Shown: positions 4,257-27,672 of the stretch, one piece after another | Layout of the letters: every line of letters starts with the position of its first letter | Numbering within the stretch: position 1 is the first letter of the stretch | DNA from: Oscillatoriales cyanobacterium CG2_30_40_61 | Lineage (GTDB): Bacteria > Cyanobacteriota > Cyanobacteriia > Cyanobacteriales > Microcoleaceae | Assembly: GCA_001873365.1 (NCBI GenBank) | Contig: MNYZ01000063.1 | Span: 1-51,808, forward strand | Length of the DNA: 51,808 nucleotides | Reading direction: 5' to 3' | Position numbers and translations under genes: made by a program | The notes under the pieces: generated by a model | What the model saw: the letters and a program-made list of their open reading frames with translations, nothing else | Database searches by the model: none | Told to the model about the DNA's origin: nothing

Positions 4257-4269
4257 GGTTATTTTTCAC

Positions 4270-4635
4270 CTATCCTCTAAGTAGTTGTTTGACGGTTCCG
4301 ACTAATTCCTCGGGTTGAAAGGGTTTAGCTATATAGGCATCGGCCCCTTGTTTCATACCCCAATAGCGGTCAAATTCTTCCCCCTTAGAAGAACACATCA
4401 CAATGGCGATATGGCGGGTTTTGGGATCGGATTTCAGGCGACGACAGAGTTCATAGCCGTTCATCCTGGGCATGACAATATCGAGTACCATTAAATCGGG
4501 ACGTTTTTTTTGCACTTCTTCAAGTGCTTCCACACCGTCGGTGGCGATACTGACCTGTAGCCCATTTTGCTTGAGCAAACTACAAATCATCTCCCGTTGA
4601 GTGACACTATCTTCGACAACCATAACTGTATTCAT
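4270..4635 (-). CDS. pilH: CheY-like response regulator (PilH)
   Basis: A single receiver domain of 121 residues with no output domain, the normal form of the CheY/PilH shuttle protein. The acidic pocket (E8, D9), the phospho-acceptor D52 in LMVLDIVMP, and K104 in the AKPF motif are all present. It lies between the PATAN regulator and pilI, with a 13-bp gap to pilI. It probably receives phosphate from the off-window CheA homologue and tunes pilus motors. Confidence 0.9.
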   Translation of the reverse strand: MNTVMVVEDSVTQREMICSLLKQNGLQVSIATDGVEALEEVQKKRPDLMVLDIVMPRMNGYELCRRLKSDPKTRHIAIVMCSSKGEEFDRYWGMKQGADAYIAKPFQPEELVGTVKQLLRG

Positions 4636-4863
4636 TTTTCTTCTCCCTTAGAAACTCCTAAATTACCTGTAGTCAGGTTGGCGGTTAGAGTCCAAGTGAA
4701 ACGGGGTTTATGCTGCATTACAAATTTATCGTAGAGTGTAATAAAACCTAGGCATCTGAAAAGACGTGATTCTGTTTCGATTATACGTGAATAGTACGGG
4801 AGCTTGATAGCCCCGTCTCTTTACTCAATCGCTCAATAAGAGGATGAACCTGGCGATATTCAA
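4636..4863. other. Intergenic gap between pilG and pilH
   Basis: 228 bp between the PATAN regulator and pilH. No ORF or clear hairpin is visible. The length allows a separate promoter for pilH-pilI-pilJ, but no convincing -35/-10 pair could be assigned. Confidence 0.4.
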
Positions 4864-6099
4864 TCAAAGGGTTTCTAACTCGGTCATAAATTCATCTTCT
4901 AAATCTATATTAATCCCAGGATCTATTGTTTTACCTGGCCCAATATAGGTTTCCACTAATGTTAATAATTCAGCATCTCCAAAGGGTTTTGTTAGGTAGT
5001 TGGTTGCTCGAACCATCCTAGCTTTGAGTCGATCAATAAATCCATCAATTCCTGTTAACATAACGATCGGAGTTTGACGAAAAGCCGTAGAATTTCTTAA
5101 CATGGCACAGATTTCATACCCATTCAATTCAGGCATGGCAATGTCACATAAAATTAAATCGGGTTTAAGCTGAAATACTAAACTTAATGCTTTTAATGGA
5201 TTGCCAATTGCTGTCGCTTCATATCCCTGTTCTCTTAAAATAATTTCAACGGTTTCTCTAATCACTAAATCATCATCAATACACACAATTCTCGGAGTTC
5301 GATTCCGATCATTTAAGGGTTCTGGCACGTTAAAAATATTTTCAGTATGGACGGCTAAAAGTTGTACAAGTCCCTGTTGTACAAAGGGATAAATAGCTTT
5401 CGCCACCGTGACAATATCTCGGTGCAAGTAACGGGAGATTTGACGAATTGAGGTTTGACCATCAGCCCATTGATTTAGGCTTTCAAAAACTTTTGGTCGG
5501 ACTGTTTTTTGTAATTTTGATCGATCTGTGATTAAGGGGCATTGGTTCGGGGAAGTAATATGGGGATGGAATTTTTTCCATTCTTGAACTTGTTTGAAAA
5601 TATCGGCTAATAAGGGACTAATTTCTAAAGTCACTAATTGGGGGGCTAATCCCGATCCCATTTCAAAAATAAAAGCACCTTGATGTAAACTGAGCAGATC
5701 AAATAAAGTTTCTTGAACCATACAATGAACAATATTTCGGGCGATATTGGGGGTAATCACTTGATTTTCCAACAACACCCATAAATATCCATATTCTGGA
5801 GCATTAACCGATGTGATCGAAGGAACTTCTAACTCGCAAAGTACGGTTTCAGCTTGATAGCGCCGTAAATAATCCCGTAACCTTTGCAGGCTGCCTTCGC
5901 TTTGGCCCGCATAGACAATGCGACCATTCCACGAAAACACTAACCAACATTGTCCCGTGAGATAACTGGGATGGCGTTCCATTTCCGTCGTACCACAGGA
6001 TGAACTGTAAGCTTCTACCATGAGTTCTCCCGTCCTCTGGCCAAGCTCAATCAGTTGTAAAAGACTGCGAATATCAATTTCGTTTAAAGAGCCTTGCAT
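4864..6099 (-). CDS. pilG: PATAN-domain (PatA-like) response regulator (PilG)
   Basis: A 411-residue PatA-family regulator. The N-terminal PATAN/DUF4388-type region (about 1-250) opens with LNEIDIRSLLQLIELGQRTG, the usual start of this domain. The C-terminal receiver domain (about 269-387) keeps D275-D277, phospho-acceptor D319 in LILCDIAMPELNGYE, and K371 in TKPFG. In cyanobacterial Pil/Pix/Hmp systems this gene heads the operon, as here. PATAN regulators affect the direction of phototaxis by acting on pilus motors; that role here is inferred from family and position. Confidence 0.86.
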   Translation of the reverse strand: MQGSLNEIDIRSLLQLIELGQRTGELMVEAYSSSCGTTEMERHPSYLTGQCWLVFSWNGRIVYAGQSEGSLQRLRDYLRRYQAETVLCELEVPSITSVNAPEYGYLWVLLENQVITPNIARNIVHCMVQETLFDLLSLHQGAFIFEMGSGLAPQLVTLEISPLLADIFKQVQEWKKFHPHITSPNQCPLITDRSKLQKTVRPKVFESLNQWADGQTSIRQISRYLHRDIVTVAKAIYPFVQQGLVQLLAVHTENIFNVPEPLNDRNRTPRIVCIDDDLVIRETVEIILREQGYEATAIGNPLKALSLVFQLKPDLILCDIAMPELNGYEICAMLRNSTAFRQTPIVMLTGIDGFIDRLKARMVRATNYLTKPFGDAELLTLVETYIGPGKTIDPGINIDLEDEFMTELETL

Positions 6100-6446
6100 T
6101 TAGCAAGTTGCCTCCGGCAAATCAGTTTCAGTTTATATATAGCAGGGAACATTCCCCGCATCCAAACAGCTTTTAGCCAAAATTCCACGGTTAGTTATCT
6201 TTTCGGTTCAATTCATAGAGCCAAGAGGCTCCTAGTGCTGTCATAATGCCGGCTGTCAGAAAACAGAACTCACATTGAGCATACCAGTTGCCAGTAACTT
6301 ATGGTGAATCAGTGCAAAAATTAGGGAATATGGGCTGGGAATCTAGTCAAAAGTTCCTTGAGGTGTTAACTTTTATGAACGCCCTGTGGAAATAAATTCC
6401 AACTCTGACCGCGTAAACTGTTCATCCCTCAGGATTTTCAAGTAAA
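6100..6446. other. Divergent intergenic region, pilG / SGNH hydrolase
   Basis: 347 bp that must hold promoters for the pil operon (leftward) and the SGNH hydrolase (rightward). I see one short hairpin (GAGCC/GGCTC near 6218-6231) and no convincing ORF, RNA gene or repeat. Confidence 0.4.
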
Positions 6447-13049: not shown

Positions 13050-13421
13050 ATGTCTTTTTACCATCAAAACCTAGAGGCTTTTTTGAAATTATTAGAAGAA
13101 CAGCCTCAATTATTTACTAACTCACACCGTCAAGATCTGATTGATTTAATTGAACCCTTACCCGATGATATTGAAACTTTATCAATTGCGATCGCTAGTT
13201 GGTATGAAAACTATGATGATATTGTTGATGCTCAGTTAGAAATTCTGAATAGTGCTATTTTAATTAATAACGATTCCGAAAAAACATCAACTTCAGAATT
13301 AGCATTAGCTCGTTTACCCCTAACTAATATTAGTTCTGTTCCTAAACCCAAACTTGAGTTAAATAAGGAAACTTTAAAAAAAGCAATTCAACCTTTATCG
13401 AAAACAACTCCTCCTGAATAA
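13050..13421 (+). CDS. Conserved-looking hypothetical protein, acidic
   Basis: A 123-residue protein that I do not recognise. The first 70 residues look helical (SFYHQNLEAFLKLLEEQPQ) and the C-terminal third is S/T/P/K-rich and probably flexible. There is no signal peptide, membrane segment or metal motif. An AGAGGA sequence 10 nt before the ATG supports the start. The next gene, an Uma2 protein, begins about 90 bp downstream on the same strand, so the two may be co-transcribed. Confidence 0.65.
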   Translation: MSFYHQNLEAFLKLLEEQPQLFTNSHRQDLIDLIEPLPDDIETLSIAIASWYENYDDIVDAQLEILNSAILINNDSEKTSTSELALARLPLTNISSVPKPKLELNKETLKKAIQPLSKTTPPE

Positions 13422-13512
13422 AAACAATCCTTGTGCATTTAATATCAATCTATTCGACAAATGATTGAAGTTTGCGCTAAACTATATCTATCCTAATTGG
13501 GTTAACCTGTTT

Positions 13513-14190
13513 ATGTTTATTGTTGATCACGAACCCGCTAACCTTCAAAGATTAGAACAACCGGAAGAATTTGATGATATTATATTTCCACCTAGTGATT
13601 TATGGAGTGAGGAACCTCCCGTGGAAAGTGATTTACACCGCAGACAAATTGATCTCCTGATTCATCTTTTAGAGTGGTGGTGGCGAAACCGTCAAGATTT
13701 TTATGTTTCTGGAAATTTAACTATCTATTTTAACCCGAATCAAAAAAAATCACAGGATTTTAGAGGGCCAGATTTCTTTGTGGTTTTAGACACAGAACGC
13801 AAACCCCGCAGGAGTTGGGTAATTTGGGAAGAAGGCAAATATCCTAATATTATTATTGAACTTTTATCCCCATCTACCGCAGAAATTGATAAAGGATTAA
13901 AGAAACAACTCTATCAAGATACCTTTCGCACCTTTGATTATTTTTGGTTTGATCCTGATACCTTAGAATTTGCTGGATTTCATTTAGTTGAGGGTAAATA
14001 TCAACCCCTTGAACCCAATTCTCAAGGATGGTTATGGAGTCAACAATTAGAATTATTTTTAGGTCTTTATAACTCCCAATTACGTTTTTTCACCTCAGAG
14101 GGTCAACTCCTCCCCACTCCCGAAGAAGCAGCAATAGCAGCAGAAATATTATTAGCAAAATATCGAGAACAATTTGGGGAGTTAACCTAA
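13513..14190 (+). CDS. Uma2-family (DUF820) putative restriction-endonuclease-fold protein
   Basis: About 225 residues from the ATG at 13513; an upstream TTG at 13465 would add 16 residues but is less likely. The PD-(D/E)XK-like core is visible as FRGPDFFVVLD followed by NIIIELLSPSTAEIDKG and the conserved K/Y helix (KKQLYQDTFRTFDYFWFDPD). Uma2 proteins are very abundant in filamentous cyanobacteria and their function is mostly unknown. The C-terminal part (EGQLLPTPEEAA) is a common Uma2 tail that usually runs on into a longer repeat; here it is short. Confidence 0.82.
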   Translation: MFIVDHEPANLQRLEQPEEFDDIIFPPSDLWSEEPPVESDLHRRQIDLLIHLLEWWWRNRQDFYVSGNLTIYFNPNQKKSQDFRGPDFFVVLDTERKPRRSWVIWEEGKYPNIIIELLSPSTAEIDKGLKKQLYQDTFRTFDYFWFDPDTLEFAGFHLVEGKYQPLEPNSQGWLWSQQLELFLGLYNSQLRFFTSEGQLLPTPEEAAIAAEILLAKYREQFGELT

Positions 14191-14203
14191 TATTTGATTT
14201 CAA

Positions 14204-14251
14204 AACCCGCGTCGGCGGGTTTCGTCTGTGTAGCGACAGATTTCAATCTGT
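14204..14251. repeat. Variant copy of the multi-hairpin repeat; possible terminator
   Basis: Stem AACCCGC/GCGGGTT with a 4-nt loop, the linker TCGTCTGTGTAGC, then stem ACAGATT/AATCTGT. The linker is the same as in the copies at 19488 and 25587, while both stems differ in a pair-preserving way. It lies just after the Uma2 stop codon and could terminate transcription, although no U-run follows the first stem. Confidence 0.6.
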
Positions 14252-14349
14252 AGGAATCTGAAAACTGAGATTGGCCAGATAATTATGTAAATTTAAGATT
14301 TGTTGCGAAAATTAACATCTAATCAAGGTAAAATAAAATCCGTTCAGAA

Positions 14350-14418
14350 CCACAGTTGAGGTTAGCATCCCAAACCCTGATGTTTGCGATTCAGTTTGGG
14401 GTGAGAACACAACTGGGG
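14350..14418 (+). promoter_or_regulatory. Long imperfect hairpin in the desB leader
   Basis: Arms CCACAGTTG...CATCCCAAAC (from 14350) and GTTTGGGGTG...CAACTGGGG (to 14418) fold into an interrupted stem with outer CAGTTG/CAACTG and inner CCCAAAC/GTTTGGG blocks. The structure ends about 31 nt before the desB GTG start, within the likely 5' leader. Desaturase mRNAs are temperature-controlled in cyanobacteria, so a structural role is plausible but unproven. Confidence 0.5.
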
Positions 14419-14449
14419 ACTTATTCACTCAGATTCAATCACAATATCT

Positions 14450-15532
14450 GTGCAATCATCCAATCAGTCTAACCAAGCCACTCTTAGTGCCTCAGCAACC
14501 AGAAAATCAGAGTTACCCTTTACTCTCCAAGATGTCAAAGCGGCTATTCCCGCCCACTGTTTTGAACCCTCGGTCTGGAAATCTCTGAGTTACTTCTTCA
14601 TTGATATTTCAGTCATCGCAGGTCTGTATTTTATCGCCTATAAACTCGATTCTTGGCTGTTTTTCCCCATTTTTTGGGTGATGCAAGGAACGATGTTTTG
14701 GGCGTTATTTGTTGTGGGCCATGATTGCGGTCATGGGTCTTTCTCCAAAATCAAATGGCTAAATAACTTAATTGGCCATTTGTCCCATATTCCGATTCTA
14801 GTTCCCTATCACGGTTGGCGCATCAGCCACAGAACCCATCACGCCAATACCGGAAATATTGATACCGATGAAAGTTGGTATCCGGTAAACGAAAGTAAGT
14901 TTAATATGATGCCCTGGCATGAAAAGCTATTTCGCTTTTATGTACCCTTACTAGCCTATCCTATTTACTTATTTCGACGGTCTCCGGGTCGTCAAGGTTC
15001 TCATTTTTTACCCAGCAGTCCTTTGTTTAAAGAGTCTGAAAAATGGGATATTATTACCAGCACCTCTTTAATGATTGCAATGGTAGGCTTTTTAGGGTTT
15101 ATCACCTATCAGTTTGGATGGTTGTTCTTTGTCAAATACTATTTCATGCCCTATTTAGTGTTTGTGATGTGGCTAGATTTAGTCACTTACTTACATCATA
15201 CTGAGGCTGATATTCCCTGGTATCGGAGCGAAGATTGGTATTTCCTGAAAGGGGCTTTATCAACCATTGACCGAGATTATGGCTTTATTAATCCGATTCA
15301 TCATAATATCGGAACTCACGTTGCTCATCACATTTTCTTGAATATGCCCCACTATCATTTGAAAACAGCAACGGAAGCGATTAAACCCCTACTGGGTGAA
15401 TATTATCGCTGTTCTAATGAACCGATTTGGAAAAGTTTTATTCAATCCTATTGGGCTTGTCATTTTGTTCCTGATAACGGTTCAAAAGTCTATTATCAAT
15501 CGGGTTGGAATTCTGACAAAAAGGTTGATTAA
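14450..15532 (+). CDS. desB: Omega-3 acyl-lipid fatty acid desaturase (DesB-like)
   Basis: A 360-residue membrane desaturase with three histidine boxes: HDCGH at 91-95, HRTHH at 127-131 and HVAHH at 290-294, followed by IFLNMPHYHLKTATEA. The first box in the context GHDCGHGSFS, and the box-three context, match omega-3 (delta-15) desaturases of cyanobacteria and plant FAD3/7 rather than DesA (delta-12). It would introduce the third double bond into membrane lipids in the cold, using ferredoxin. The start is GTG at 14450 with no strong Shine-Dalgarno sequence. Confidence 0.9.
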   Translation: MQSSNQSNQATLSASATRKSELPFTLQDVKAAIPAHCFEPSVWKSLSYFFIDISVIAGLYFIAYKLDSWLFFPIFWVMQGTMFWALFVVGHDCGHGSFSKIKWLNNLIGHLSHIPILVPYHGWRISHRTHHANTGNIDTDESWYPVNESKFNMMPWHEKLFRFYVPLLAYPIYLFRRSPGRQGSHFLPSSPLFKESEKWDIITSTSLMIAMVGFLGFITYQFGWLFFVKYYFMPYLVFVMWLDLVTYLHHTEADIPWYRSEDWYFLKGALSTIDRDYGFINPIHHNIGTHVAHHIFLNMPHYHLKTATEAIKPLLGEYYRCSNEPIWKSFIQSYWACHFVPDNGSKVYYQSGWNSDKKVD

Positions 15533-15564
15533 CTTCTTTCACCATCTTAGAAACCGGGTTTTTG

Positions 15565-15852
15565 CAGTAGTCTGAATAACTAGCAATAAATCAGCGTTAA
15601 CAACCCGGTTTCTTTTCTTTTACAGTAGTCTGAATAACTAGCAATAAATCAGCGTTAACAACCCCAAGAAACCAGAAACCGGGTTTTTCCAGTAGTCTGA
15701 ATAACTAGCAATAAATCAGCGTTAACAACCCGGTTTCTTTTCTTTTGCAGTAGTCTGAATAACTAGCAATAAATCAGCGTTAACAACCCGGTTTCTTTTC
15801 TTTTGCAGTAGTCTGGATAACTAGCAATAAATCCCTGTTAAAACCCGGTTTC
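15565..15852. repeat. 58-bp tandem repeat array between convergent genes
   Basis: Five copies start at about 15565, 15623, 15690, 15748 and 15806. Spacing is 58 bp except for one step of 67 bp. Each unit contains AGTAGTCTGAATAACTAGC and ends in AACCCGGTTTCTT. The last copy is degenerate. Upstream GAAACCGGGTTTTT segments (15550, 15677) can pair with the AACCCGGTTTC ends, so the array can form hairpins and may terminate desB and the WD40 gene. Confidence 0.85.
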
Positions 15853-15860
15853 TTCCCTGA

Positions 15861-18800
15861 CTACTGACATAATATTCTATCTTCGGGACTAATCTCTGAA
15901 TTAGTTTTTAAATAATCCTTTATCCAATAACAAGCATAGGCAAATTCATTCAAGTTTAAAACTTGATCTAAATTCCATAACATCACCGTTTTATCTTCAC
16001 TTACGGAAGCCAGAGTTTTACCATCGGGACTAAATTTAACATTATAAACTTCATCATTATGACCATTCAAAGTTTTAACTAAAGTGCCATCTAGTTTCCA
16101 AAGTTTAATGGTTTTATCCTGACTTGCTGATGCTAATAACTGTTGGTCAGGACTGAAGGCGACGGCCATCACAGTTGCGGTGTGTCCCTTGAGGGTATTT
16201 TCATAAATAAAGGATTTAATCCTAGGACTCCAACGCCATAATTTTACGGTTTCGTCTCGACTGGCGGAGGCTAAAATCTGTCCATCGGGACTCAAAGCCA
16301 GTCCCCAAATCCCATCTTGATGACCTGTTAATGTTTGTAGGAGTTGACCATTCAACCCCCAAATTTTTATGGTTTTATCGTCAGAACTCGAAATAATCCC
16401 ATCACCTTTGGGCGCAATTGCTATTCCCCAAACTTGACCATTATGACCCTTCAAAGTTTGGCGGAGTGTTCCATCGATTCCCCAAATTTTAACTGATTCA
16501 TCCCAACTTCCAGAAATCAAAGATTGATTATCGGGGGTAAATTGCATCCCCCAAACCCCCCTTTGATGTCCTAATAGGGTTTGATAGGGATGGGTGATAA
16601 AGGTTGCATTTTGAGTTTTTTTCCAAAGATTAATCGTCCCATTTACGGAGGCTGAGGCTAACCATTGACCATCGGAACTAAACTCAACCTGATGAACCCA
16701 GGAGTTTTGTCCTGTCAGGGTTTGTAATAATTTCCCCTGTTTTGTCCAGAGTTTAATCGTCTTGTCTAAGGATGACGAAGCAATGGTTTGACCATCGGGA
16801 CTAAAAGCGACTCCCCAAACGCTGTCTTGATGACCGATTAACCGACCTACTAAATAATCTTTGATTTTCCAAAGTCTAACACTTTTATCCCAACTCGCCG
16901 AAGCGATCATTTGACTATCGGAACTAAAGACAATCTGACTTACTTCTCCATCATGTCCGAATAAAGTTTGATCAGGAGTATAAACAGAAGTCTTGGGATC
17001 TTTTCGCCAGAGTTGTATTTTTTTATTTCGCATTCCCGCCGCTAAAAATTGCTGATTGGGACTAAATGCCACATCCCAAACGTCATCTTCTAAGGGGCCA
17101 AAACTATCGATTAAAATTCCTTCTCGACTCCAGAGTTTAAGGGTTTTATCTCGACTCCCGGAAGCAATCAGTTGACCATCGGGACTCCACTTTACCGCCA
17201 GAATTTCACTTTGATGTTCGGTGAGAGTTTTTAAAAGTGTGCCATCGGATTTCCAAATTTTTAGGGTATTATCAGCACTCCCAGAAGCAAATTTTTGACC
17301 ATCGGGACTAAAGACAACAGTTCTAATTTCACCACTATGGGCGGGAATAGTTTTTAATAGTTTCCCATCTATTGTCCACATTTTTAGGGTGTGATCTAAA
17401 CTAGCTGAAATTAGGAGATTTTGAGTCGGACTAAAACTAACAGCCTGGACTGATGATTTGTGTCCATTTAAGGTTCTTAAATAGCTCCCATCGGTTTTCC
17501 ACAATTTAATGGTTTTGTCTGCACTCCCCGAAGCCAGGATGGGATGGTGGGGACTAAATGCTAACCCCATAATGCCACTTTCATGTCCGATCAGGGTTTT
17601 CCAAAGGCTGCCATCGAGTTTCCAGAGTTTAATAGTTTTATCCTGACTTCCTGATGCAATTAAATCTCCTTTTGGGCTAAATTGTACGGTGGAAACTATA
17701 CTGGTATGTCCTGAAAGTTGATTATATTGTTGAATCCCATAAACGGCTTTTTGTAGGGTTAATTCCACGTTTTGGCGAGTTTCAGCATCGATACGGGGTA
17801 GGATTTGCAATTGTCGATAGGCTTTCATGGATTGAATTAATGCTTCAAATCGTTGATTTAAAGCAAATAATGACTCACCCGATTGATTTAGAGCTTTAAC
17901 TTCGTTCGTTTTTGCCTGGTTTTCATTCACCCTAGCTTGATGATATTGAAACCCTGAAATTAGACCTAAGATAATGGTAATAACTAAGGCACTACTAACG
18001 GATAAAAGTAAAAATCGTTGCAGTTTTGCGGTCTTTTTTTCTTGGGTAAGTCGGGCTTCTACTTCCCGCATTCTGGCAGCTTCTAAGGATTGTTGAACTT
18101 CTTGCCGATCTAATTCTTCACTTTTAGCTAAAAATTGATAATCTAAATCACTAATACTGCGACCACTTGACCAATTTTGCGCTTCTATTAAGGCTTGTCC
18201 TCGTAATAGTCGAGAGGTATCTTTTTGGTGAGATTCTACCCAGGCATCAAAGGCTTGAGAATAGGGTCGCAGATTACTCAATTGTTGGTTAACCCAGTCT
18301 AAATCAAAGACTTCTTGATAAATGGGATTTTTGACTCGTAAAAACCCGGTTTTTTTGATGACTAAACCGGATAATATTAGTTCGGATTGTTCGTTACTAT
18401 CATCGGTTAAAACTTCTAAATTTTTGAGAATATCTTGATAAATTCCTAGAATTCTGCCGATGTGATCGGGGTTATTTTCAATTCGGTTACGAATGGTTCT
18501 TAAATGTTCGGGTTCATCCTGGGATTCCCATTTATAAATAATCTGTGATCGCACTAAGGATTCTACCCAAAATCCTTCGGTTCCAGGGGGAATAGTTAAT
18601 ATTTTATTAACTGTTTCTTTGGTAGTGTTTATCACCAATTGACATAATTTTTGTGTCAAAAAAGGTTGTCCTCCTGTCCAAGATATAATTTCTGCCATGA
18701 TGGCTTTAGCATTAGTAACTTTTGCTTCTAACCCTTCAATTAAGGGTTGAACTTCATTTAGGGTAAACCCTGATAATTCAATGGCTTTTCCGATATTAAA

Positions 18801-19394
18801 GGGGGTGCGAGTGCGATCGCAAATTAAGGCTGAAGGTGTGGCTACTCCAAATAAGGCAAAGCTAATCCGGTTATATTCAGGATTAATTGCCCGTTGATTA
18901 TAGCAAAACCGAATTAAGGCAAAAAAATCATCGACTTTAAAATCTAAACTTAAAATACTATCAATTTCATCGACAAAAATAATTAATTTTTTATCAGAAA
19001 ATTCAACTAATAAAATATCTTCTATAAAATTACTCAGACGTTGAATTACAGAAACATATTCTTCCTGTTTCCACCAATTTTTTAAATTAAATTTACCTAA
19101 AAGATTAAATCCTCGCCATAACTCGGTAACTATTCCTTTATACCATTGTTGTTCGGTTACCATTTCGCTACCAATGCGAGTCATATCCAAAGTCGCGCAT
19201 TGAAATCCTTCTTGTTGTAAACGATAACGAGTTTTAACTAACAGGGAAGATTTCCCCATTTGCCGAGAATTTAAAACATAACAAAAATGCCCTTGTTGTA
19301 ATTGAGAATACAGATCATAATCCGCTTTTCTAACTACATAAGTCGGAGCATCTTGAGCTAAACTTCCCCCAATTTGATAGGCAGAATAAATCAT
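15861..19394 (-). CDS. AAA-like ATPase / WD40-repeat protein
   Basis: About 1177 residues from the preferred ATG at 19394 (MIYSAYQIGGSLAQDAPTYV). An upstream ATG at 19445 would add 17 residues encoded by a dispersed repeat, so it is rejected. The N-terminal AAA_35-type domain has a Walker A-like NSRQMGKSSL and Walker B KLIIFVDEID. A transmembrane segment (LLLSVSSALVITIILGLISG) follows near 460-485. Fourteen WD40 repeats come next, enough for two seven-bladed propellers. This architecture is common in filamentous cyanobacteria and is thought to be signalling or scaffold-like; the ligand is unknown. Confidence 0.85.
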   Translation of the reverse strand: MIYSAYQIGGSLAQDAPTYVVRKADYDLYSQLQQGHFCYVLNSRQMGKSSLLVKTRYRLQQEGFQCATLDMTRIGSEMVTEQQWYKGIVTELWRGFNLLGKFNLKNWWKQEEYVSVIQRLSNFIEDILLVEFSDKKLIIFVDEIDSILSLDFKVDDFFALIRFCYNQRAINPEYNRISFALFGVATPSALICDRTRTPFNIGKAIELSGFTLNEVQPLIEGLEAKVTNAKAIMAEIISWTGGQPFLTQKLCQLVINTTKETVNKILTIPPGTEGFWVESLVRSQIIYKWESQDEPEHLRTIRNRIENNPDHIGRILGIYQDILKNLEVLTDDSNEQSELILSGLVIKKTGFLRVKNPIYQEVFDLDWVNQQLSNLRPYSQAFDAWVESHQKDTSRLLRGQALIEAQNWSSGRSISDLDYQFLAKSEELDRQEVQQSLEAARMREVEARLTQEKKTAKLQRFLLLSVSSALVITIILGLISGFQYHQARVNENQAKTNEVKALNQSGESLFALNQRFEALIQSMKAYRQLQILPRIDAETRQNVELTLQKAVYGIQQYNQLSGHTSIVSTVQFSPKGDLIASGSQDKTIKLWKLDGSLWKTLIGHESGIMGLAFSPHHPILASGSADKTIKLWKTDGSYLRTLNGHKSSVQAVSFSPTQNLLISASLDHTLKMWTIDGKLLKTIPAHSGEIRTVVFSPDGQKFASGSADNTLKIWKSDGTLLKTLTEHQSEILAVKWSPDGQLIASGSRDKTLKLWSREGILIDSFGPLEDDVWDVAFSPNQQFLAAGMRNKKIQLWRKDPKTSVYTPDQTLFGHDGEVSQIVFSSDSQMIASASWDKSVRLWKIKDYLVGRLIGHQDSVWGVAFSPDGQTIASSSLDKTIKLWTKQGKLLQTLTGQNSWVHQVEFSSDGQWLASASVNGTINLWKKTQNATFITHPYQTLLGHQRGVWGMQFTPDNQSLISGSWDESVKIWGIDGTLRQTLKGHNGQVWGIAIAPKGDGIISSSDDKTIKIWGLNGQLLQTLTGHQDGIWGLALSPDGQILASASRDETVKLWRWSPRIKSFIYENTLKGHTATVMAVAFSPDQQLLASASQDKTIKLWKLDGTLVKTLNGHNDEVYNVKFSPDGKTLASVSEDKTVMLWNLDQVLNLNEFAYACYWIKDYLKTNSEISPEDRILCQ

Positions 19395-19420
19395 GGTTTT
19401 AAAAGTTTTACAGGTATTCG

Positions 19421-19535
19421 GCGAATATAATTCGCTACTACACAAACCAAGTCCACCTGCGTGGACTAAGAGAAAATTCCGGTTTCTAACCCACGAAGGT
19501 GGGTTTCGTCTGTGTAGTCGCGATTTGCAATCGCC
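19421..19535. repeat. Multi-hairpin dispersed repeat, copy A
   Basis: Four consecutive palindromic blocks: GCGAATATAATTCGC (19421-19435), a GTCCAC/GTGGAC hairpin (19451-19466), AACCCAC/GTGGGTT (19488-19505) and GCGATT/AATCGC (19520-19534). An outer pairing of ACTACACA with TGTGTAGT encloses the middle two, giving a cloverleaf-like fold. The same order recurs at 25654-25777. It lies between LysR and the WD40 gene. Confidence 0.8.
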
Positions 19536-19573
19536 GGGGATAGATTATCCCCCATTCGTAATTCGTAATTCCC

Positions 19574-20467
19574 TCAAGCAGCCATGCCCAAACTAGATAG
19601 AATTTTGAGAAATTTATCTAAAGATTTAGTCGGTGTTTCTTTCCTCCATACAGCAGTTGATCGGGCATAGTATATGGGATGGTGTAGTGGCATAAACACA
19701 ACTTTGGGATCAGGTAGTGCTTCTGCTTCCTTCGGCATAACTGCTACCCCTTTCCCTGCTGCAACCAGAGCAATCATTGAGGCATGGCTATCGGCAAACA
19801 GATTCAGATTGGGTTTGAAGCCAGCACAGTGACAAGTATCAAGTATCCGATCATTTCGCCCTGGAAAGGTTTCTTCAGACATCCCGATAAACCTTTCAAA
19901 AGCCAATTCTATCAGATTGATCGAGGAGTGCTTTGCCAACGAGTGCGTATCAGGTATTACAGCAGCAATAGGCACTTGCTTGACACATTTGACGGTAAAT
20001 TCTTGTTCTAAATTATCCGGTGGATTACCCATAAAAGCAATATCGATCACGCCATCCCCCAGGGCTTTAACTTGCTCACTAGGTGACATCTCCTGAAAAC
20101 GAATCACAACTTTAGGATAGACAAGTTGAAACAGGTGGAGGGTTTCACCCAGAAAACTTTGGAGGATAGTTGGGATATAGCCAATCCTTAAAAGCTCACC
20201 TTTATTGATGGAATAAGCCTTCATACTTTGAATAGCGACACGACTAAGATTCAAAATATTTTTTGCTTGTTCGAGAAAAATTTTTCCCGCTTCTGTGAGC
20301 TTCAACCCATCAGATTGTCTGAGAAAAAGCACAACGCCGAATTCATCTTCAAGATTTTTGATTTGACGGCTTAAGGCAGGTTGGGAAATATACAAATGAA
20401 CAGCAGCACGGCTGAAGTTGAGATATTCGGCAACAGCCACGAAATATTGAAGATGCCGTAATTCCAT
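19574..20467 (-). CDS. LysR-family transcriptional regulator
   Basis: A 297-residue LTTR. The winged helix-turn-helix is at about 1-65 (NFSRAAVHLYISQPALSRQI), followed by a linker helix and a periplasmic-binding-like effector domain (about 90-290). The N-terminus MELRHLQYFVAVAEYLNFSRAA resembles the CbnR/CatR branch that binds small carbon or redox-linked effectors. It is divergent from the NADPH oxidase gene with a 126-bp shared control region, the classic layout for an LTTR that regulates its neighbour. Control of the oxidase is inference. Confidence 0.88.
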   Translation of the reverse strand: MELRHLQYFVAVAEYLNFSRAAVHLYISQPALSRQIKNLEDEFGVVLFLRQSDGLKLTEAGKIFLEQAKNILNLSRVAIQSMKAYSINKGELLRIGYIPTILQSFLGETLHLFQLVYPKVVIRFQEMSPSEQVKALGDGVIDIAFMGNPPDNLEQEFTVKCVKQVPIAAVIPDTHSLAKHSSINLIELAFERFIGMSEETFPGRNDRILDTCHCAGFKPNLNLFADSHASMIALVAAGKGVAVMPKEAEALPDPKVVFMPLHHPIYYARSTAVWRKETPTKSLDKFLKILSSLGMAA

Positions 20468-20491
20468 AATTGTATGGGGTATGCCTAAAAG

Positions 20492-20505
20492 TTATAGCGT
20501 CATAA
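20492..20505. promoter_or_regulatory. Candidate LysR-type operator (T-N11-A dyad)
   Basis: TTAT-N6-ATAA in the LysR/NOX divergent spacer contains the T-N11-A core expected of LTTR boxes. It lies about 25 nt before the LysR start and about 90 nt before the oxidase ATG, a normal position for autoregulation and activation of the divergent gene. The region is AT-rich, so chance is not excluded. Confidence 0.4.
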
Positions 20506-20593
20506 TTATAAGGTATTTGACTTTATTTATGTGTTCTATTATGCTGATTAATCAAATGACATGAACAGCAACATAAAATAAGATAACTAAACA

Positions 20594-22603
20594 ATGGAAA
20601 CACCGAGAATTATCTTAGATGAATTGCGACAGGTCTTCACCAAGATTGCTGGAGAAGATAAACAAATTGATCGGAAAGAATTTAAAAAAGCTTTGGGGCT
20701 GAAAGACGAATATTTTGCCAATCGACTCTTTTCCCTATTTGATAAAGACAACAGTGGTGATATTAAAATAGAAGAATTTCTGATAACTGTAGAAAACCTG
20801 GTTTTTGCTACTACGGAAGATAAACTAAAATTTGCTGATGAATTACATGATATTAACGGGGATGATGGCATTGACAAAGCCGAAATTGCTCACTTAATTT
20901 CGGCCAGTCTCAATGAAAATAATCTCAGTTTTAAGCCAGAACAAATTAATGATTTAGTTGATATATTATTTTTAGAAGCTGACAGCGATGGCAGTGGTGA
21001 AATTTCCTTTATAGAATTTAAAGGTTTAATCGGTAAATTTCCTGATTTAATTGCAGCAATGACAGTTAGTCCGATTAGCTGGCTCAGACCTCACAAACAA
21101 AATTCTCAAACAGTTGCTTCTCCAGAAAAAAAGCGGACAAAAAAGGCTTACATCAAGCATTATATTGAAAACAATTGGGTCAAAATTACGTTTTTAGCCC
21201 TCTATGTTGCTGTTAATCTATTTCTTTTCTTTGGCGCAGTTAATCGATATGCAGATTTAGGGGCAAATGTATATGTTCAGATTGCCAGAGGTTGCGGTGC
21301 AACGCTTAATTTTAATGGGGCGTTAATTCTCATCCCCATGATGCGGCATTTTATGACTTTGCTTCGCAAAAGTAGCCTTAACAACTATTTACCTATAGAT
21401 GAAAGTATCGAGTTTCATAAGCTAGTAGGTCAAGTCATGTTTGCCTTGGCAATTGTACATACGATCGCACATTTTCTCAATTATACTACCTTACCTGCGC
21501 CTTTTCTCCAAAGTTTATTGGGGACAAAAGCGGGTTTATCGGGATTTTTATTACTGCTAGTTTTCACAATTATGTGGGTGACGGCGCAAGATCCAATCCG
21601 CAAAGGAGGGCAATTTTCGCTTTTCTATCTAGCTCACATGGGCTACGGTTTGTGGTTTGTTTTGGCATTAATTCACGGCCCAGTTTTTTGGCAGTGGGTG
21701 TTATTCCCGGTGCTGGGATTTGTGATTGAATTAGTGATCCGATGGCGGACAACAAAAGATGCAACATTTGTGGTTAATGCCTCTTTACTTCCTTCTAAAG
21801 TTTTAGGTTTAGAAGTTCAACGTCCAGCCTCTTTCAACTATCAACCAGGGGACTATTTATTTATTAAATGTCCCTCAATTTCCAACTTTGAATGGCATCC
21901 ATTTACAATTAGCAGCGCCCCGGAAATACCAGATGTTTTATCTTTACATATCCGCGCCGCCGGAAGTTGGACGGGTAAGTTATATCAACTTTTTCGAGAG
22001 CAAAGGGAAGAATGGATACGTTCAGATAGTTCTCAACCTGAGCCGAGAGTTCCAGTCTATTTAGATGGGCCCTATGGTACACCCAGTACGGATATTTTTG
22101 AATCTAAATATGCTGTGTTAATCGGTGCTGGTATTGGTGTGACTCCCTTTGCTTCTATCCTAAAAAGTATTTTGTACCGCAATCAACATCATTCTTCTAA
22201 CATAAATTTGAAGAAGGTACATTTTTACTGGCTAAATCGAGAACAAAAAGCCTTTGAATGGTTTGTTGAACTGTTATCACAAATCGAAATCGAAGATACT
22301 AACAAACTCTTTGATCTAAACTTATATTTAACTGGCGCCCAGCAACAGTCAGATATGAAGTCTAGCACCCTATTTGTGGCAATGGATTTGTTACATTCTC
22401 GGACACAGGTTGATTTGATTACAGGTTTAAAGAGTCGAACAAAAACTGGTCGTCCAGACTGGGATAATATTTTCCGCGACTTAGCAAGACAACACGAACC
22501 CAATAAAGTTGACGTATTTTTCTGTGGGCCTCCTGGACTCTCAACACAGTTAAAAAGTCTCTGCACTAAATACGGATTTGGCTATAGGAAAGAAAATTTC
22601 TAA
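20594..22603 (+). CDS. EF-hand NADPH oxidase (NOX5-like)
   Basis: A 669-residue membrane flavocytochrome predicted to pass electrons from NADPH via FAD and two hemes to O2, making superoxide. Three EF-hand loops are at 50-61 (DKDNSGDIKIEE), 86-97 (DINGDDGIDKAE, with D instead of G at loop position 6) and 130-141 (DSDGSGEISFIE). The six-helix ferric-reductase domain is about 195-385, with heme-ligand histidines H275-x13-H289 and H348-x12-H361, the exact NOX spacing. FAD motif HPFTISS is at 435-441, DGPYG at 491, nucleotide motif GAGIGVTPF at 511, CGPPG at 644, and the C-terminal residue is Phe. This matches the NOX5 architecture known from Cylindrospermum. It is probably calcium-activated. Confidence 0.92.
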   Translation: METPRIILDELRQVFTKIAGEDKQIDRKEFKKALGLKDEYFANRLFSLFDKDNSGDIKIEEFLITVENLVFATTEDKLKFADELHDINGDDGIDKAEIAHLISASLNENNLSFKPEQINDLVDILFLEADSDGSGEISFIEFKGLIGKFPDLIAAMTVSPISWLRPHKQNSQTVASPEKKRTKKAYIKHYIENNWVKITFLALYVAVNLFLFFGAVNRYADLGANVYVQIARGCGATLNFNGALILIPMMRHFMTLLRKSSLNNYLPIDESIEFHKLVGQVMFALAIVHTIAHFLNYTTLPAPFLQSLLGTKAGLSGFLLLLVFTIMWVTAQDPIRKGGQFSLFYLAHMGYGLWFVLALIHGPVFWQWVLFPVLGFVIELVIRWRTTKDATFVVNASLLPSKVLGLEVQRPASFNYQPGDYLFIKCPSISNFEWHPFTISSAPEIPDVLSLHIRAAGSWTGKLYQLFREQREEWIRSDSSQPEPRVPVYLDGPYGTPSTDIFESKYAVLIGAGIGVTPFASILKSILYRNQHHSSNINLKKVHFYWLNREQKAFEWFVELLSQIEIEDTNKLFDLNLYLTGAQQQSDMKSSTLFVAMDLLHSRTQVDLITGLKSRTKTGRPDWDNIFRDLARQHEPNKVDVFFCGPPGLSTQLKSLCTKYGFGYRKENF

Positions 22604-22685
22604 CCAAAATTACGGACATGAATCTATTTTGATCATGATTAAAATACCTGCCAAAATACTTGTAAATTAGGACAAAATCAACATC

Positions 22686-22919
22686 ATGAAAGAACCTAAG
22701 ATCCAACCGCAAAAACCCATTCAAGCCGCCATTAAAGACTTGCAAAAAAGTCATTCTTATCCTTCCAATTGGCGAGAGAGATTTTTCGATACCCTCAAGA
22801 AAAAATACCCTAATTTTCACATTTTCTACGTTTTTTTTAACATTATTGCTATGCTTGTCTACTATCTACACTCTCATCGCCATCATGTTATGCTGATGCG
22901 GTATGCTTGGTTTCTTTAG
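22686..22919 (+). CDS. Small putative single-pass membrane protein
   Basis: 77 residues, with a basic hydrophilic N-terminal half (about 1-45) and one hydrophobic segment (about 46-62, FHIFYVFFNIIAMLVYYL), then a His-rich tail HSHRHH. It starts 82 bp after the NADPH oxidase stop on the same strand. I recognise no family. It may be a subunit-like partner of the oxidase, by analogy to p22phox, but no similarity is claimed. It could also be a truncated remnant. Confidence 0.45.
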   Translation: MKEPKIQPQKPIQAAIKDLQKSHSYPSNWRERFFDTLKKKYPNFHIFYVFFNIIAMLVYYLHSHRHHVMLMRYAWFL

Positions 22920-22929
22920 CAGAATTCCG

Positions 22930-23019
22930 ATGCAACTATTTTTACTGGCAATAATATTAGTGTTTGGCAGTTTATTCTTGCTTTATATTGACGATATGAA
23001 GCTGGATGAATTGGGCTAA
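22930..23019 (+). CDS. Very short hydrophobic ORF
   Basis: A 29-residue ORF: one hydrophobic helix (MQLFLLAIILVFGSLFLLYI) followed by a short acidic tail. It lies 10 bp after the 77-residue ORF and in the same direction. It has the form of a small membrane peptide, but it is too short to separate from chance. Confidence 0.25.
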   Translation: MQLFLLAIILVFGSLFLLYIDDMKLDELG

Positions 23020-23055
23020 ACTATCCTGCACCGCTATTGTTTGAGATCAAAAACA

Positions 23056-23373
23056 ATGAAATTAGACAAGTTTGTTCTGGCACAAAATATGGCTTTCCTA
23101 ATATCTATTCCCCCGGAAAGCAATCTCGCTAAATTACTGGCTTTTTGCCTGAGTACAAAGGTTAGGGAAAATACTACAGGCACAAAAATATTGGAGCTAA
23201 CTTATGAGTTAATGGAAAATCCATCTAAATTGCCTTATTGGACTCAAGACATTATGGGACAGGATTTAGATTACACGACTGAGGAATGGAAAGCACTGGG
23301 AGAAATGGGGATTAAGGATGCTAATGATTTTATGAATAAGCTCTGGCAGGAATTAGAAAATTTGAATTTGTAA
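23056..23373 (+). CDS. Hypothetical protein in the NOX cluster
   Basis: 105 residues from the ATG at 23056; a TTG five codons upstream is less likely. The protein looks mostly helical and soluble, with no signal peptide, membrane span or metal motif. The C-terminal half (YTTEEWKALGEMGIKDANDFMNKLWQEL) is acidic. I do not recognise it. It lies between the oxidase and the damaged phosphatase, same strand, so it is probably co-transcribed. Confidence 0.5.
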   Translation: MKLDKFVLAQNMAFLISIPPESNLAKLLAFCLSTKVRENTTGTKILELTYELMENPSKLPYWTQDIMGQDLDYTTEEWKALGEMGIKDANDFMNKLWQELENLNL

Positions 23374-23427
23374 TTGCTGCTTTCCAAATCACAGAAATTT
23401 TCACATTACAGGGATTCTATAAACAGC

Positions 23428-23838
23428 ATGAATAATCTACCACAAGAGCATCTATCTTCAAATATAATTCCTAACTCGGAAACATCTAACCAAGTAGCAG
23501 AAAATAATCACCAGGAAGGAAAGGTTTATTTTATTCGCCATGGTGAAAGTACCAGCAATGAACGCAATATTTTTGCAGGTGTATTAGATGTAGATTTGAC
23601 TGCATTTGGTAGATTACAAGCTCGTCAAGTAGGTTCTGACCTCAAGAAAAAAGGGATGAAGTTCGATGCAGTATATGTCTCTCACATGAGACGCGCAAGA
23701 CAAACCTGCGAAATTGCCCTGGCTGAAAGTCGGGCTTTGAAATCCTCCGATACTCCTATACAAATAGACCATCGAATTAGTGAGAAATCCTTTGGTATTT
23801 TTGCAGATCGTAACCTAAATTTGCTGCGTTTAGACTGA
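23428..23838 (+). pseudogene. Truncated histidine-phosphatase family gene
   Basis: 136 residues from the ATG at 23428. The N-terminal half of a phosphoglycerate-mutase-like phosphatase is intact: the RHGES catalytic motif near 38-42, SHMRRARQT, and RISEKSFGIFADRN. The frame then stops at 23836-23838, before the second catalytic histidine and the C-terminal half of the fold (family members are usually around 200 residues or more). Downstream, in another frame, an EF-hand-coding stretch begins at once. I read it as a gene broken by deletion and/or frameshift; a sequencing error at the junction is possible. Confidence 0.65.
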
Positions 23839-23980
23839 TTATCTGTTCCATACCCTAGACGCAGATAAAAGTGGAACAGTTGATTTGCAAGAGTTAGAAG
23901 AGTATGTATCAACCTATGGGTTAGTTGCTAACCTTAATGTTGTCTCTGTTGCTGCTTCCCCAGGTTCATTAGGAACTTAA
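23834..23980 (+). pseudogene. EF-hand-encoding fragment without its own start
   Basis: The frame one base on from the phosphatase is open from 23834 to the TAA at 23978-23980 and encodes 48 residues with a textbook EF-hand loop (DADKSGTVDLQE) between two helices. There is no start codon. The phosphatase tail (NLLRL) plus this fragment (TDYLFHTL) would make a continuous entering helix, so a one-base shift near 23833 could join them. It is either a C-terminal EF-hand of a fused protein or the 3' end of a lost EF-hand gene. Confidence 0.55.
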
Positions 23981-24092
23981 TACAGTAATCAAAAAAAATC
24001 AACTGTATTAGCTTCTTTCAAGTAATTAAAGGTTTAGTATTTTCCCAACCTTAATCGGTAGGACTATACAAAGTTAAATAAAGTAAAAAAGT

Positions 24093-25529
24093 ATGACATT
24101 AAACATTGAAATCTTAGAGCAAAGTTTTGAGAAAGTCAAACCTCGTGCTAATGAATTTGCAGCCAGTTTCTACGAGAATCTTTTTCAAGCACACCCAGAA
24201 GTGAAACCACTGTTTACTAAAACAGATATGAAAAACCAAGAGAAAAAACTGTTAAATTCTCTGGTTTTGGTAGTAGAAAATCTCCGCAACCCAGAGGCTT
24301 TAAGTCCAGTTCTCAAGGCCCTAGGAGGTAGACACGTCGGTTATGGAGCTATTCCTAAATATTATAAACCAGTGGGAGAAGCACTGCTAATGACGTTTGA
24401 GCAGTATCTGGCCGAAGATTGGACTCCTGAAGTCAAAAAAGCTTGGCTAGATGCTTATAGAGCCATTACAACCTTGATGTTAAAAGGTGCGAGGGAGGAA
24501 TCTTCGCCTCAAGTTGTTGAAGCTCAGAAACCTGCTATTGTACCAAAGCCTATCCCAGCAGAAAAACCTAAAACTTTAGCAAAACCTTCAACATTAACAG
24601 ATGAAACCCCAAAAGAATCTCCGCAATTTCAGACAGACCCACAGAAAAAAGCTCTGATATCAATGCAGTTAGATGAACAAATTTTAAAAGAAATTATCAA
24701 TAATTTTATCGCAAATTATCAGAAGTTTCAGACCAAAATATCAGAACAGCCATTAAGTGAAGTCCTCAAACAACTTCCCAGGAAACTTATTGACGCTTTC
24801 TGGGAAGCACCTGTATGGTTAGTCGCGGTAGGTTCGGCAGTTATTTTTACGGTAGTTCTTGTAATTGTTGATGACAATTCTTTACTAGCAGAGGTTTTGG
24901 GTGCTGCTGATACTATCAGTTTGGTGGTGGCGTTAGTTCTATTTATTAAAGAAGCTCCAGACCGCAGAAAACAATTTCATTATCAAGCTTGGAGTATAGT
25001 TGATGCAGCCCAAAATGTTAAAGTTAGTTATGCCAGAATTTTGGCACTGCAAGATTTGAATGAGGATGGAGTTTCTTTGAAAGGTTTGGATGCTCCTGGT
25101 GCGGAGCTAGTAGATATTAATCTCTCCCATGCCAATTTGAGTAAAGCAAATTTGATAGAAAGCGATTTGACAAATGCTAATTTGAGCTATGCCAATTTAG
25201 ATAATGCTAATCTCAGTCAGGCTAAACTGAGTGGTGCAAACTTGAGTCATGCAAAATTGGGTTTTGCTCACTTGAATCAAGCTAATTTGAATAGTGCCAA
25301 TCTCAGTAATGCTAACTTGATTTGTTCAGATTTGAGTAATGCTAACTTGAGTGGTGCTAATTTGAAAGATGCTAGTTTAAATGGTGCTAATTTCGAGGGA
25401 GCTTACCTCACGGGTGCAAATCTCAAAAATGCTAAAGTCAGCGATTATGAACTGAGTAGTGCTTTTCGGGAAGGTGCGATTATGCCCGATGGCTCAAAGT
25501 ATAAATCATCACTTAGCGATCGCTCTTAG
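24093..25529 (+). CDS. Membrane-anchored globin with C-terminal pentapeptide repeats
   Basis: 478 residues. Residues 1-133 form a bacterial single-domain/flavohemoglobin-type globin with Tyr27 (B10), Phe41 (CD1), Gln49 (E7) and proximal His81 (F8, in GGRHVGYG), the same heme-pocket set as Vitreoscilla hemoglobin. A Pro/Lys-rich linker (about 140-185) follows, then a helical part (190-235), two hydrophobic helices (about 241-259 and 272-286), and A(N/D)LXX pentapeptide repeats (about 335-448). There is no reductase domain. It is the last gene of the NOX cluster. O2 or NO sensing or scavenging at the membrane is inferred. Confidence 0.85.
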   Translation: MTLNIEILEQSFEKVKPRANEFAASFYENLFQAHPEVKPLFTKTDMKNQEKKLLNSLVLVVENLRNPEALSPVLKALGGRHVGYGAIPKYYKPVGEALLMTFEQYLAEDWTPEVKKAWLDAYRAITTLMLKGAREESSPQVVEAQKPAIVPKPIPAEKPKTLAKPSTLTDETPKESPQFQTDPQKKALISMQLDEQILKEIINNFIANYQKFQTKISEQPLSEVLKQLPRKLIDAFWEAPVWLVAVGSAVIFTVVLVIVDDNSLLAEVLGAADTISLVVALVLFIKEAPDRRKQFHYQAWSIVDAAQNVKVSYARILALQDLNEDGVSLKGLDAPGAELVDINLSHANLSKANLIESDLTNANLSYANLDNANLSQAKLSGANLSHAKLGFAHLNQANLNSANLSNANLICSDLSNANLSGANLKDASLNGANFEGAYLTGANLKNAKVSDYELSSAFREGAIMPDGSKYKSSLSDRS

Positions 25530-25548: not shown

Positions 25549-25636
25549 CTACAGAAACCAAGTCCTCAAAGAAAATTCCGGTTTCTAACCCACGCAGGTG
25601 GGTTTCGTCTGTGTAGCCGCGATTTCTAATCGCCGG
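25549..25636. repeat. Multi-hairpin dispersed repeat, copy B (partial)
   Basis: It starts with CTACAGAAACCAAGTCC, lacks the GTCCAC/GTGGAC hairpin, then has AACCCAC/GTGGGTT and the GCGATT/AATCGC hairpin with the same linker as copy A. It lies 20 bp after the globin stop codon, in the same orientation as copy A. Confidence 0.75.
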
Positions 25637-25653
25637 AGATAATAGAGATAATA

Positions 25654-25777
25654 GGCGAATATAATTCGCGACTACAGAAACCAAGTCCACCTGCGTGGAC
25701 TCAAAGAAAATTCCGGTTTCTAACCCACGCAGGTGGGTTTCGTCTGTGTAGCCGCGATTTCTAATCGCCGGAGATAG
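25654..25777. repeat. Multi-hairpin dispersed repeat, copy C (full)
   Basis: A full-length copy: GCGAATATAATTCGC, the GTCCAC/GTGGAC hairpin, AACCCAC/GTGGGTT and GCGATT/AATCGC, in the same order and orientation as copy A at 19421. Copies A and C flank the LysR-NOX-globin segment as direct repeats. Confidence 0.8.
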
Positions 25778-25838
25778 GTTTCTATTTTTTAGTTGATCTC
25801 GTTTTGATCTCGTTTCTAGGTTCTACCTACAAATGCTC

Positions 25839-25912
25839 TACAGGAGGCTCCGCCTCCATTATCCTAGAGGCAGAGCCTCCGAAAGCAGTTCCCAGGGTGA
25901 CCCTGGGAACCA
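25839..25912. repeat. Cluster of GC-rich palindromes
   Basis: Three consecutive hairpins: GGAGGCTCCGCCTCC, GAGGCAGAGCCTC and the TTCCCAGGGTGACCCTGGGAA palindrome. They lie in the spacer between the globin and groEL genes and continue the repeat-dense tract. Such elements are common dispersed repeats in filamentous cyanobacteria and may also act as terminators. Confidence 0.7.
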
Positions 25913-25919
25913 GGAAAAC

Positions 25920-25985
25920 TCCGGTTTCTAACCCACGAAGGTGGGTTTCATCTATGTAGCCGCGATTTCCAATCGCCAGGGATAG
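25920..25985. repeat. Multi-hairpin dispersed repeat, copy D (right half)
   Basis: Contains CCGGTTTCTAACCCACGAAG, the GTGGGTT arm, a linker with two changes (TCATCTATGTAGC) and the GCGATT/AATCGC hairpin. It directly abuts the groEL stop codon, so it may form its 3' end structure. Confidence 0.7.
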
Positions 25986-25986
25986 G

Positions 25987-27672
<1,686 letters not shown>

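Follow-up and report, generated by a model that had tools for sequence, protein, structure and literature searches.

A NOX5-type oxidase and its companion genes

The DNA examined here is a stretch of 51,808 nucleotides from Oscillatoriales cyanobacterium CG2_30_40_61 (contig MNYZ01000063.1 of assembly GCA_001873365.1), hereafter called the window. It contains a cluster which reads, from left to right, a LysR-type regulator gene, a gene for a NOX5-type EF-hand NADPH oxidase (NOX), a region of gene fragments (22686-23947) enclosing a small intact gene designated x110, and a gene for a globin-pentapeptide protein. An initial annotation of this DNA had proposed a Ca2+-gated redox island, an idea that survives in so far as the oxidase is of the NOX5 type and is linked to the globin gene in other genomes as well, while the phosphatase arm of the proposed island has been lost in the window.

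The NOX gene (20594-22603, + strand) is intact and encodes a protein of 669 amino acids with matches to the Pfam families Ferric_reduct (PF01794), FAD_binding_8 (PF08022) and NAD_binding_6 (PF08030) and to four EF-hand models, all above cut-off. A residue check located three canonical EF-hand loops, starting at residues 50, 86 and 130, and two histidine pairs, 275/289 (spacing 14) and 348/361 (spacing 13), as the initial annotation had claimed; we take these histidines to be the heme ligands, spaced as in NOX2. The top PDB matches were the 'putative ferric reductase' chains 5o0x, 8cak and 5o0t (E 1.9e-161 for the dehydrogenase part against 8cak, and 1.6e-109 for the membrane part against a ferric reductase chain), and the match to 6sz5 (NADPH oxidase 5) had an E value of 3.6e-155. 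Chains 5o0x, 8cak and 5o0t are presumably csNOX5 of Cylindrospermum stagnale. This assignment fits the domain limits given in PMC7317449, and D587 and D607 of the window protein align with Asp611 and Asp631 of csNOX5. Judged by sequence, the window NOX looks like a csNOX5 ortholog.

Ca2+-dependent superoxide production has been established for csNOX5, which is 40% identical to human NOX5 and from which the first crystal model of the catalytic core of a NOX was obtained (PMC7317449). According to the same source, csNOX5 membranes gave 0.0032 absorbance units per second without Ca2+ and 0.0159 with 1 mM CaCl2; in the presence of Ca2+, the EF-truncated protein gave 0.0025, and the D611H, D631A and D631R variants gave 0.0036, 0.0019 and 0.0016 absorbance units per second, respectively (PMC7317449). 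The Ca2+ activation that had been ascribed to the NOX5 type is therefore documented for this close relative, and by analogy Ca2+-dependent superoxide production is predicted for the window NOX. As to origin, cyanobacterial NOX5 probably derives from horizontal transfer from a eukaryote according to PMC9421330, while the contrary view, that EF-hand fusions arose independently in bacteria and eukaryotes, is expressed in PMC7016017.

The globin-pentapeptide gene (24093-25529, + strand) encodes 478 amino acids, with Globin and Pentapeptide Pfam matches above cut-off and two hydrophobic helices (241-259 and 267-285), in agreement with the membrane-tethered globin-pentapeptide protein described initially. 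Among 34 aligned globin domains (19 loci searched), Tyr, Phe and His occur at putative B10, CD1 and F8 in 34/34 and Gln at putative E7 in 33/34, the names of these positions being our own assignment; the window globin has all four pocket residues. Its match to PDB 3s1i (hemoglobin-like flavoprotein) had an E value of 5e-23 and that to the flavohemoprotein 3ozu one of 1e-14, the closest solved globin structures being 3s1i, 3ubc and 3wfw (fused to Roadblock), followed by bacterial hemoglobin and flavohemoproteins. We take 3s1i and 3ubc to be Hell's Gate globin. No Pfam match to a fused FAD/NAD reductase domain was obtained for the window globin, which continues instead into the transmembrane (TM) hairpin and the pentapeptides; lacking a reductase domain, the protein is not a flavohemoglobin. 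It has a single globin domain, as have its counterparts in two of the loci compared (L003 and L011; labels in L denote contig stretches compared, those in G sample genomes), while two globin domains precede the hairpin in five of the seven contig-scan loci with the gene.

Between the oxidase and globin genes lies x110 (23056-23373, + strand), whose 105-amino-acid product belongs to a family without a name, recognized by homologue search. Comparison of x110 with Pfam and NCBIfam gave nothing at E <= 0.1; its model is all helical, with a mean predicted local distance difference test score (pLDDT) of 70, and a Foldseek search of the PDB with this model gave 28 matches at E <= 10, of which none reached E <= 0.001.

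The remainder of the fragment region consists of two decayed genes. The corresponding place in close relatives is taken by a single gene whose product, of about 680-700 amino acids, combines a histidine phosphatase domain with about 10 segments judged hydrophobic from hydropathy and with a pair of EF-hands (histidine-phosphatase/multi-TM/EF-hand protein, HPEF). The window keeps, in different frames, residues 1-126 (23428-23838, + strand, matching His_Phos_1; 94% identical to L007) and residues 636-673, which comprise the last EF-hand (23834-23947, + strand; 95%), about 510 residues being gone with respect to the intact homologue. The phosphatase remnant has the RHG motif and matches His_Phos_1 profile positions 1-88/194, compared with 1-174/194 in L007, and the second catalytic His of the (branch 1) histidine phosphatases is absent from it; a complete domain with both catalytic histidines is not present in the window copy. 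An AlphaFold2 model of intact HPEF had a mean pLDDT of 38.6 and was not used. Further upstream, 22686-23013 (+ strand) holds remnants of a 194-amino-acid four-TM protein (residues 1-56 and 143-194, in different frames and with one stop), a homologue of which is intact in L124 (8396-8977). The damaged phosphatase/EF-hand locus of the initial annotation is thus real as regards HPEF, with two corrections: 22686-23013 belongs to a different decayed gene, and x110, which the initial annotation did not name, is a conserved gene in its own right.

Linkage of the cluster genes across genomes

Three samples were compared, namely a contig scan (15 NOX-relative loci), 388 genomes of the order and 386 genomes of the phylum; the genomes are related, and the linkage and placement counts ignore shared descent. 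Counts for the globin-pentapeptide gene apply among the matches listed, from which 46 places were picked by hand, with globin-only and two pentapeptide-only places (G561, G537 C114) excluded.

Of the nine genomes of the order sample that have NOX, seven have x110 no more than 3 kb away from it, and, among the matches listed, six have a globin-pentapeptide gene within 10 kb and seven within 25 kb; this is the oxidase-globin linkage in several genera that had been set beforehand as a test of the initial annotation. The linked loci of the contig scan belong to Tychonema, Anabaena, Cylindrospermum, Drouetiella and uncultured cyanobacteria. Their gene order varies, HPEF standing before NOX in L002 and L003 and after x110 in L005 and L007, and L011 having its globin and x110 genes inverted. 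In the latter locus, x110 is also adjoined by an apparent reverse transcriptase-Cas1 fusion (15051-17054) with CRISPR-like repeats behind it, as read from the translation alone.

In the contig scan, ten loci have NOX at least 77% identical to that of the window. Eight of them contain x110 in the same locus, seven of these together with the globin-pentapeptide gene, which for L004 comes into reach only in a longer stretch, L122, and the two loci without x110 are L008 and L010, the latter with an interrupted oxidase and a stretch that ends about 0.5 kb after it. Two further loci, L014 and L015, come from Rhodospirillaceae metagenome-assembled genomes with NOX5-like EF-hand oxidases, the one in L015 being divided between two overlapping frames; neither oxidase has a match to x110, HPEF or a globin nearby.

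Beyond the oxidase, x110 was found in 53/388 and HPEF in 24/388 genomes of the order, HPEF having a listed globin-pentapeptide gene within 10 kb in 12/24. The commonest partner of globin-pentapeptide genes is x110: the two lie no more than 3 kb apart in 39 of the 42 genomes having both (among the matches listed), and x110 remains next to the globin-pentapeptide gene down to about 50% identity. No globin-pentapeptide gene is listed within 10 kb at 17 of the 57 x110 places, 13 of which are homologues at 36-46% identity. The most widespread part of the cluster is the x110 and globin-pentapeptide pair, and NOX is present in only some such clusters. NOX remnants occur between x110 and HPEF in two NOX-less clusters, L113 (E 9e-20) and L114 (E 1e-11), so that NOX was formerly part of at least two clusters which now lack it.

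Further genes also gather around x110. Expected numbers were calculated from a Poisson model assuming independence and uniform placement, with rounded genome sizes, and the loci that first revealed the neighbours are part of the counts. Within 10 kb of x110 lie 8/37 EF-hand-pair genes, NOX and HPEF not counted (0.12 expected; 20 genomes, of which 7 contribute), and 9/41 bestrophins (0.12 expected; 22 genomes, of which 7 contribute), 3/41 bestrophin places being partial or interrupted, including one (G039) of the nine near x110. For MscS genes the excess is weaker (5/115, 0.35 expected; 3/19 genomes), six places having been picked by eye. Random placement would produce the arrangement far less often than it is seen, in counts that ignore shared descent. 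The view that the window simply has an ordinary csNOX5 with chance neighbours was rejected on the linkage counts and on the neighbour enrichment relative to random placement.

As to individual neighbours, L003 has two EF-hand proteins near its cluster, a small one and one of 797 amino acids (3931-6324) that joins two EF-hand pairs at its N terminus to an Erv1/Alr-family match and lies about 3.7 kb before NOX. A 434-amino-acid EF-hand protein stands between HPEF and globin in L123, and EF-hand proteins are also present in L118 and L120. Beside the globin-pentapeptide gene of L115 there is a urea transporter with C-terminal EF-hands fused (13099-14769). Behind NOX in L008 (10001-17806) come genes for a globin-bearing adenylate cyclase of the arrangement dCache-HAMP-cyclase-globin, for an MscS channel carrying a cNMP-binding domain and for a PBP-like protein; the same three genes are divergent from NOX in L009 (463-8728), with the cyclase 74% and the MscS 85% identical, and this set, found in two genera, is a candidate for a separate sensing branch. 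In L122, the globin-pentapeptide gene directly follows a cyclase that lacks a globin match and a cNMP-MscS related to these (32% identical), and a 72-amino-acid remnant of an L122-type cNMP-MscS channel lies beside the globin gene of L114. G195 has a further, second locus (contig C10, approximately 23.7-45.7 kb) where a globin domain, EF-hand matches and three MscS genes share some 22 kb.

The LysR gene, its conserved element and the flanking repeats

The LysR gene (19574-20467, - strand; HTH_1 and LysR_substrate Pfam matches) is divergent from the NOX gene, with 126 bp between them in the six-frame listing of open reading frames. The 85 bp adjoining LysR (20468-20552) form a conserved element of predicted regulatory function, which includes an imperfect dyad (20481-20516) and agrees with the window at 73/85 positions in L004, 71/85 in L007 and 72/84 in L123, loci in which the LysR copies beside NOX are 76% identical to that of the window. 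For comparison, 4-fold sites in these three loci are 58-64% identical to the window in LysR and 66-74% in NOX, and Fisher tests of the element against them gave P values of 3e-5 to 0.004 (LysR sites) and 0.0006 to 0.03 (NOX sites).

The element recurs, as found by blastn, in two NOX-less clusters, L118 (two copies) and L120; an operator pattern search of the window and the compared loci had matched only the window copy. It stands upstream of LysR in both clusters, with an EF-hand gene replacing NOX in L120. The LysR copy of L118 is 74% identical and lies about 7 kb from x110, and LysR fragments are present in L119 and L120. The second L118 copy (4956-5013) precedes the series CrcB, CrcB, bestrophin, bestrophin, x110 and globin-pentapeptide (L118 4956-8059, genome G640), the CrcB-like genes presumably belonging to the fluoride channel family. 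Among the seven aligned element sites, the outer arms read ATGCCT/AGGCAT in L004 and L123 and ATGCTT/AAGCAT, with both arms changed, in L007 and L118 site 2; they differ on one side only in the window, L120 and the L118 LysR site. The recurring element is the best evidence here for the suggestion that one regulator serves NOX and the x110-globin genes, and LysR may act by binding the dyad of the divergent promoter. Consensus scans for promoters and terminators gave numbers near shuffle level (22 against a mean of 16.8, and 8 against 5.7) and were set aside.

The cluster is bracketed by repeats. Upstream, a 138-bp repeat resembling a miniature inverted-repeat transposable element (19409-19546), with a weak internal palindrome, has 135 bp that are 90% identical to 25646-25780; downstream (25570-25989), this near-full copy is accompanied by two partial ones. 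Elsewhere in the window there is only a 30-46 bp match at 14204 and no longer copy. L113 has an 84% identical copy at a distance of 2.3 kb from its globin gene; there is also a match of about 30 bp near NOX in L011/L125 and a short one in L128, a stretch of the window's own genome. The window cluster looks like a mosaic, since x110 (97%) and the HPEF remnant (94%) are closest to Anabaena lutea L007 and its kind while NOX is closest to L002 and L003 (94%), L003 being identical to a stretch of G195, in the family of the window. The upstream flank is occupied by a gene for a 1194-amino-acid protein (15861-19445, - strand) with AAA_35 and 14 WD40 Pfam matches.

Proposed function and relation to known systems

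The likeliest reading of the cluster, to which we give about an even chance, is a superoxide module at the membrane that is activated by Ca2+ and controlled by LysR. Starting from the genes, intact motifs, linkage and conserved element that the sequence provides, we infer the trigger, the role and membrane side of the globin, the binding of LysR and the joint action of the parts as follows. LysR would control the divergent promoter; cytosolic Ca2+ would fill the EF-hands of NOX5, which would then move electrons from NADPH across the membrane to O2, yielding superoxide outside. The globin-pentapeptide protein would sit on the inner membrane face via its two-helix hairpin and, together with x110, might work beside NOX as a gas/redox sensor or as a handler of nitric oxide (NO) or O2. 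In fuller clusters, HPEF, other EF-hand proteins and ion channels could tie the response to the movement of ions; the window, having lost its phosphatase arm, would retain the oxidase, x110, the globin and LysR.

A number of observations weigh against such a module. NOX is rare, being found in 9/388 genomes of the order, in two of them as fragments (G652, G654), and in 6/386 of the phylum sample. The globin-pentapeptide gene does not need it, because 37 of the 46 genomes with that gene (among the matches listed) have no NOX. L008 has NOX without x110 or globin-pentapeptide, a globin cyclase being present instead, and L012-L016, with NOX 47-52% identical, also lack both genes (the contigs of L013 and L016 are shorter than 5 kb). 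The LysR gene adjoins NOX in only 3/9 NOX genomes of the order sample (the window, G127 and G306) and in L007; its divergent position agrees with the initial annotation, and the gene itself lies outside the stretch that had been assigned to the island. The 15-base dyad score was reached in 42/300 shuffles for the window, and by 4, 83 and 26 of 300 shuffles for L004, L007 and L123; since shuffles often reach its score, the dyad by itself is not significant in most loci. The window has only decayed copies of two cluster members, and its own genome yielded no bestrophin. Finally, the bracketing repeats make transfer or recombination of the cluster as a block plausible.

This last point leads to a possible though clearly less probable explanation, that of genes which travel together by repeat recombination or through hot spots and are inherited together without joint function. 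The repeats on both sides of the cluster, their counterparts near the globin gene of L113 and near NOX in L011/L125, the patchy occurrence of NOX and the mosaic similarity all favour it. On the other hand, co-mobilization would not by itself account for a regulatory element that is kept while standing before different genes, for the over-representation of EF-hand and bestrophin genes near x110, or for the persistence of x110 beside the globin-pentapeptide gene at low identity.

No less tentative is the division of the cluster into two independent units, with x110 and the globin-pentapeptide protein forming an O2/NO-handling membrane unit and NOX5 a separate oxidase that shares no more than neighbourhood and regulator. 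The close pairing of x110 and globin-pentapeptide, the presence of NOX in only 9/46 globin-pentapeptide genomes (among the matches listed) and the resemblance of the globin to 3s1i speak for such a division; against it, NOX adjoins the pair in several families and has left remnants inside two NOX-less clusters.

A more elaborate version of the proposed module would be a dedicated bacterial oxidative-burst circuit around a eukaryote-like oxidase, in which a globin-bearing adenylate cyclase senses O2 or NO, cyclic AMP opens an MscS-type channel that binds cyclic nucleotides, the entering Ca2+ makes NOX5 and the EF-hand membrane phosphatase fire together, and the membrane globin and x110 read the product, all within one LysR regulon with one recurring operator; we regard it as improbable. 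In a search for a globin cyclase or a cNMP channel beside MscS in the genome of the window, covering five stretches (G000) and the window itself, the best MscS matches were 24-33% identical over parts, and the cyclase search returned one 25% match and the window's own globin domain.

Also improbable is a vestigial cluster, in which the system is being lost in this strain and the remaining genes have no linked role: the decayed genes, the single globin domain where most loci have two and the missing bestrophin would agree with it, but the frames of NOX, LysR, x110 and globin-pentapeptide stay open, and no loss was seen among those histidines, EF loops and globin pocket residues that were checked.

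The superoxide module remains our preferred reading. The recurring neighbourhood of regulator, element, x110, EF-hand and channel genes represents a testable lead on the role of bacterial NOX5 and, if its parts do act together, bacteria would have a Ca2+-to-superoxide signalling circuit like that of animals and plants.

The oxidase is of a known kind, and no description of its surroundings was found in the literature searched, which lacked most subscription papers; the same applies to the combination of genes in the cluster. The window NOX shares with csNOX5, its best PDB match for both domains, the EF-hands, the paired histidines, the FAD/NADPH domains and the Asp pair; the account of csNOX5, in the sections available to us, is structural and biochemical, without gene neighbourhood or cell role (PMC7317449). 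Fusions of EF-hands to 7TM proteins and to NADPH oxidase have been described in cyanobacteria, with membrane redox roles suggested (PMC7016017); the main text of that paper is without globin, bestrophin or histidine phosphatase, and the present cluster is therefore not described there. With flavohemoglobins and single-domain globins such as 3s1i, the window globin has in common the Tyr/Gln/His pocket, but it differs from flavohemoglobins in being joined to a TM hairpin and pentapeptide repeats, with no fused reductase. A globin domain is also associated with a redox enzyme in another cyanobacterium, Synechococcus PCC 7335, whose nitric oxide synthase, as reported in PMC6104048, bears the globin within one polypeptide, whereas in the window separate genes encode an NADPH oxidase and a membrane-hairpin globin with pentapeptides.

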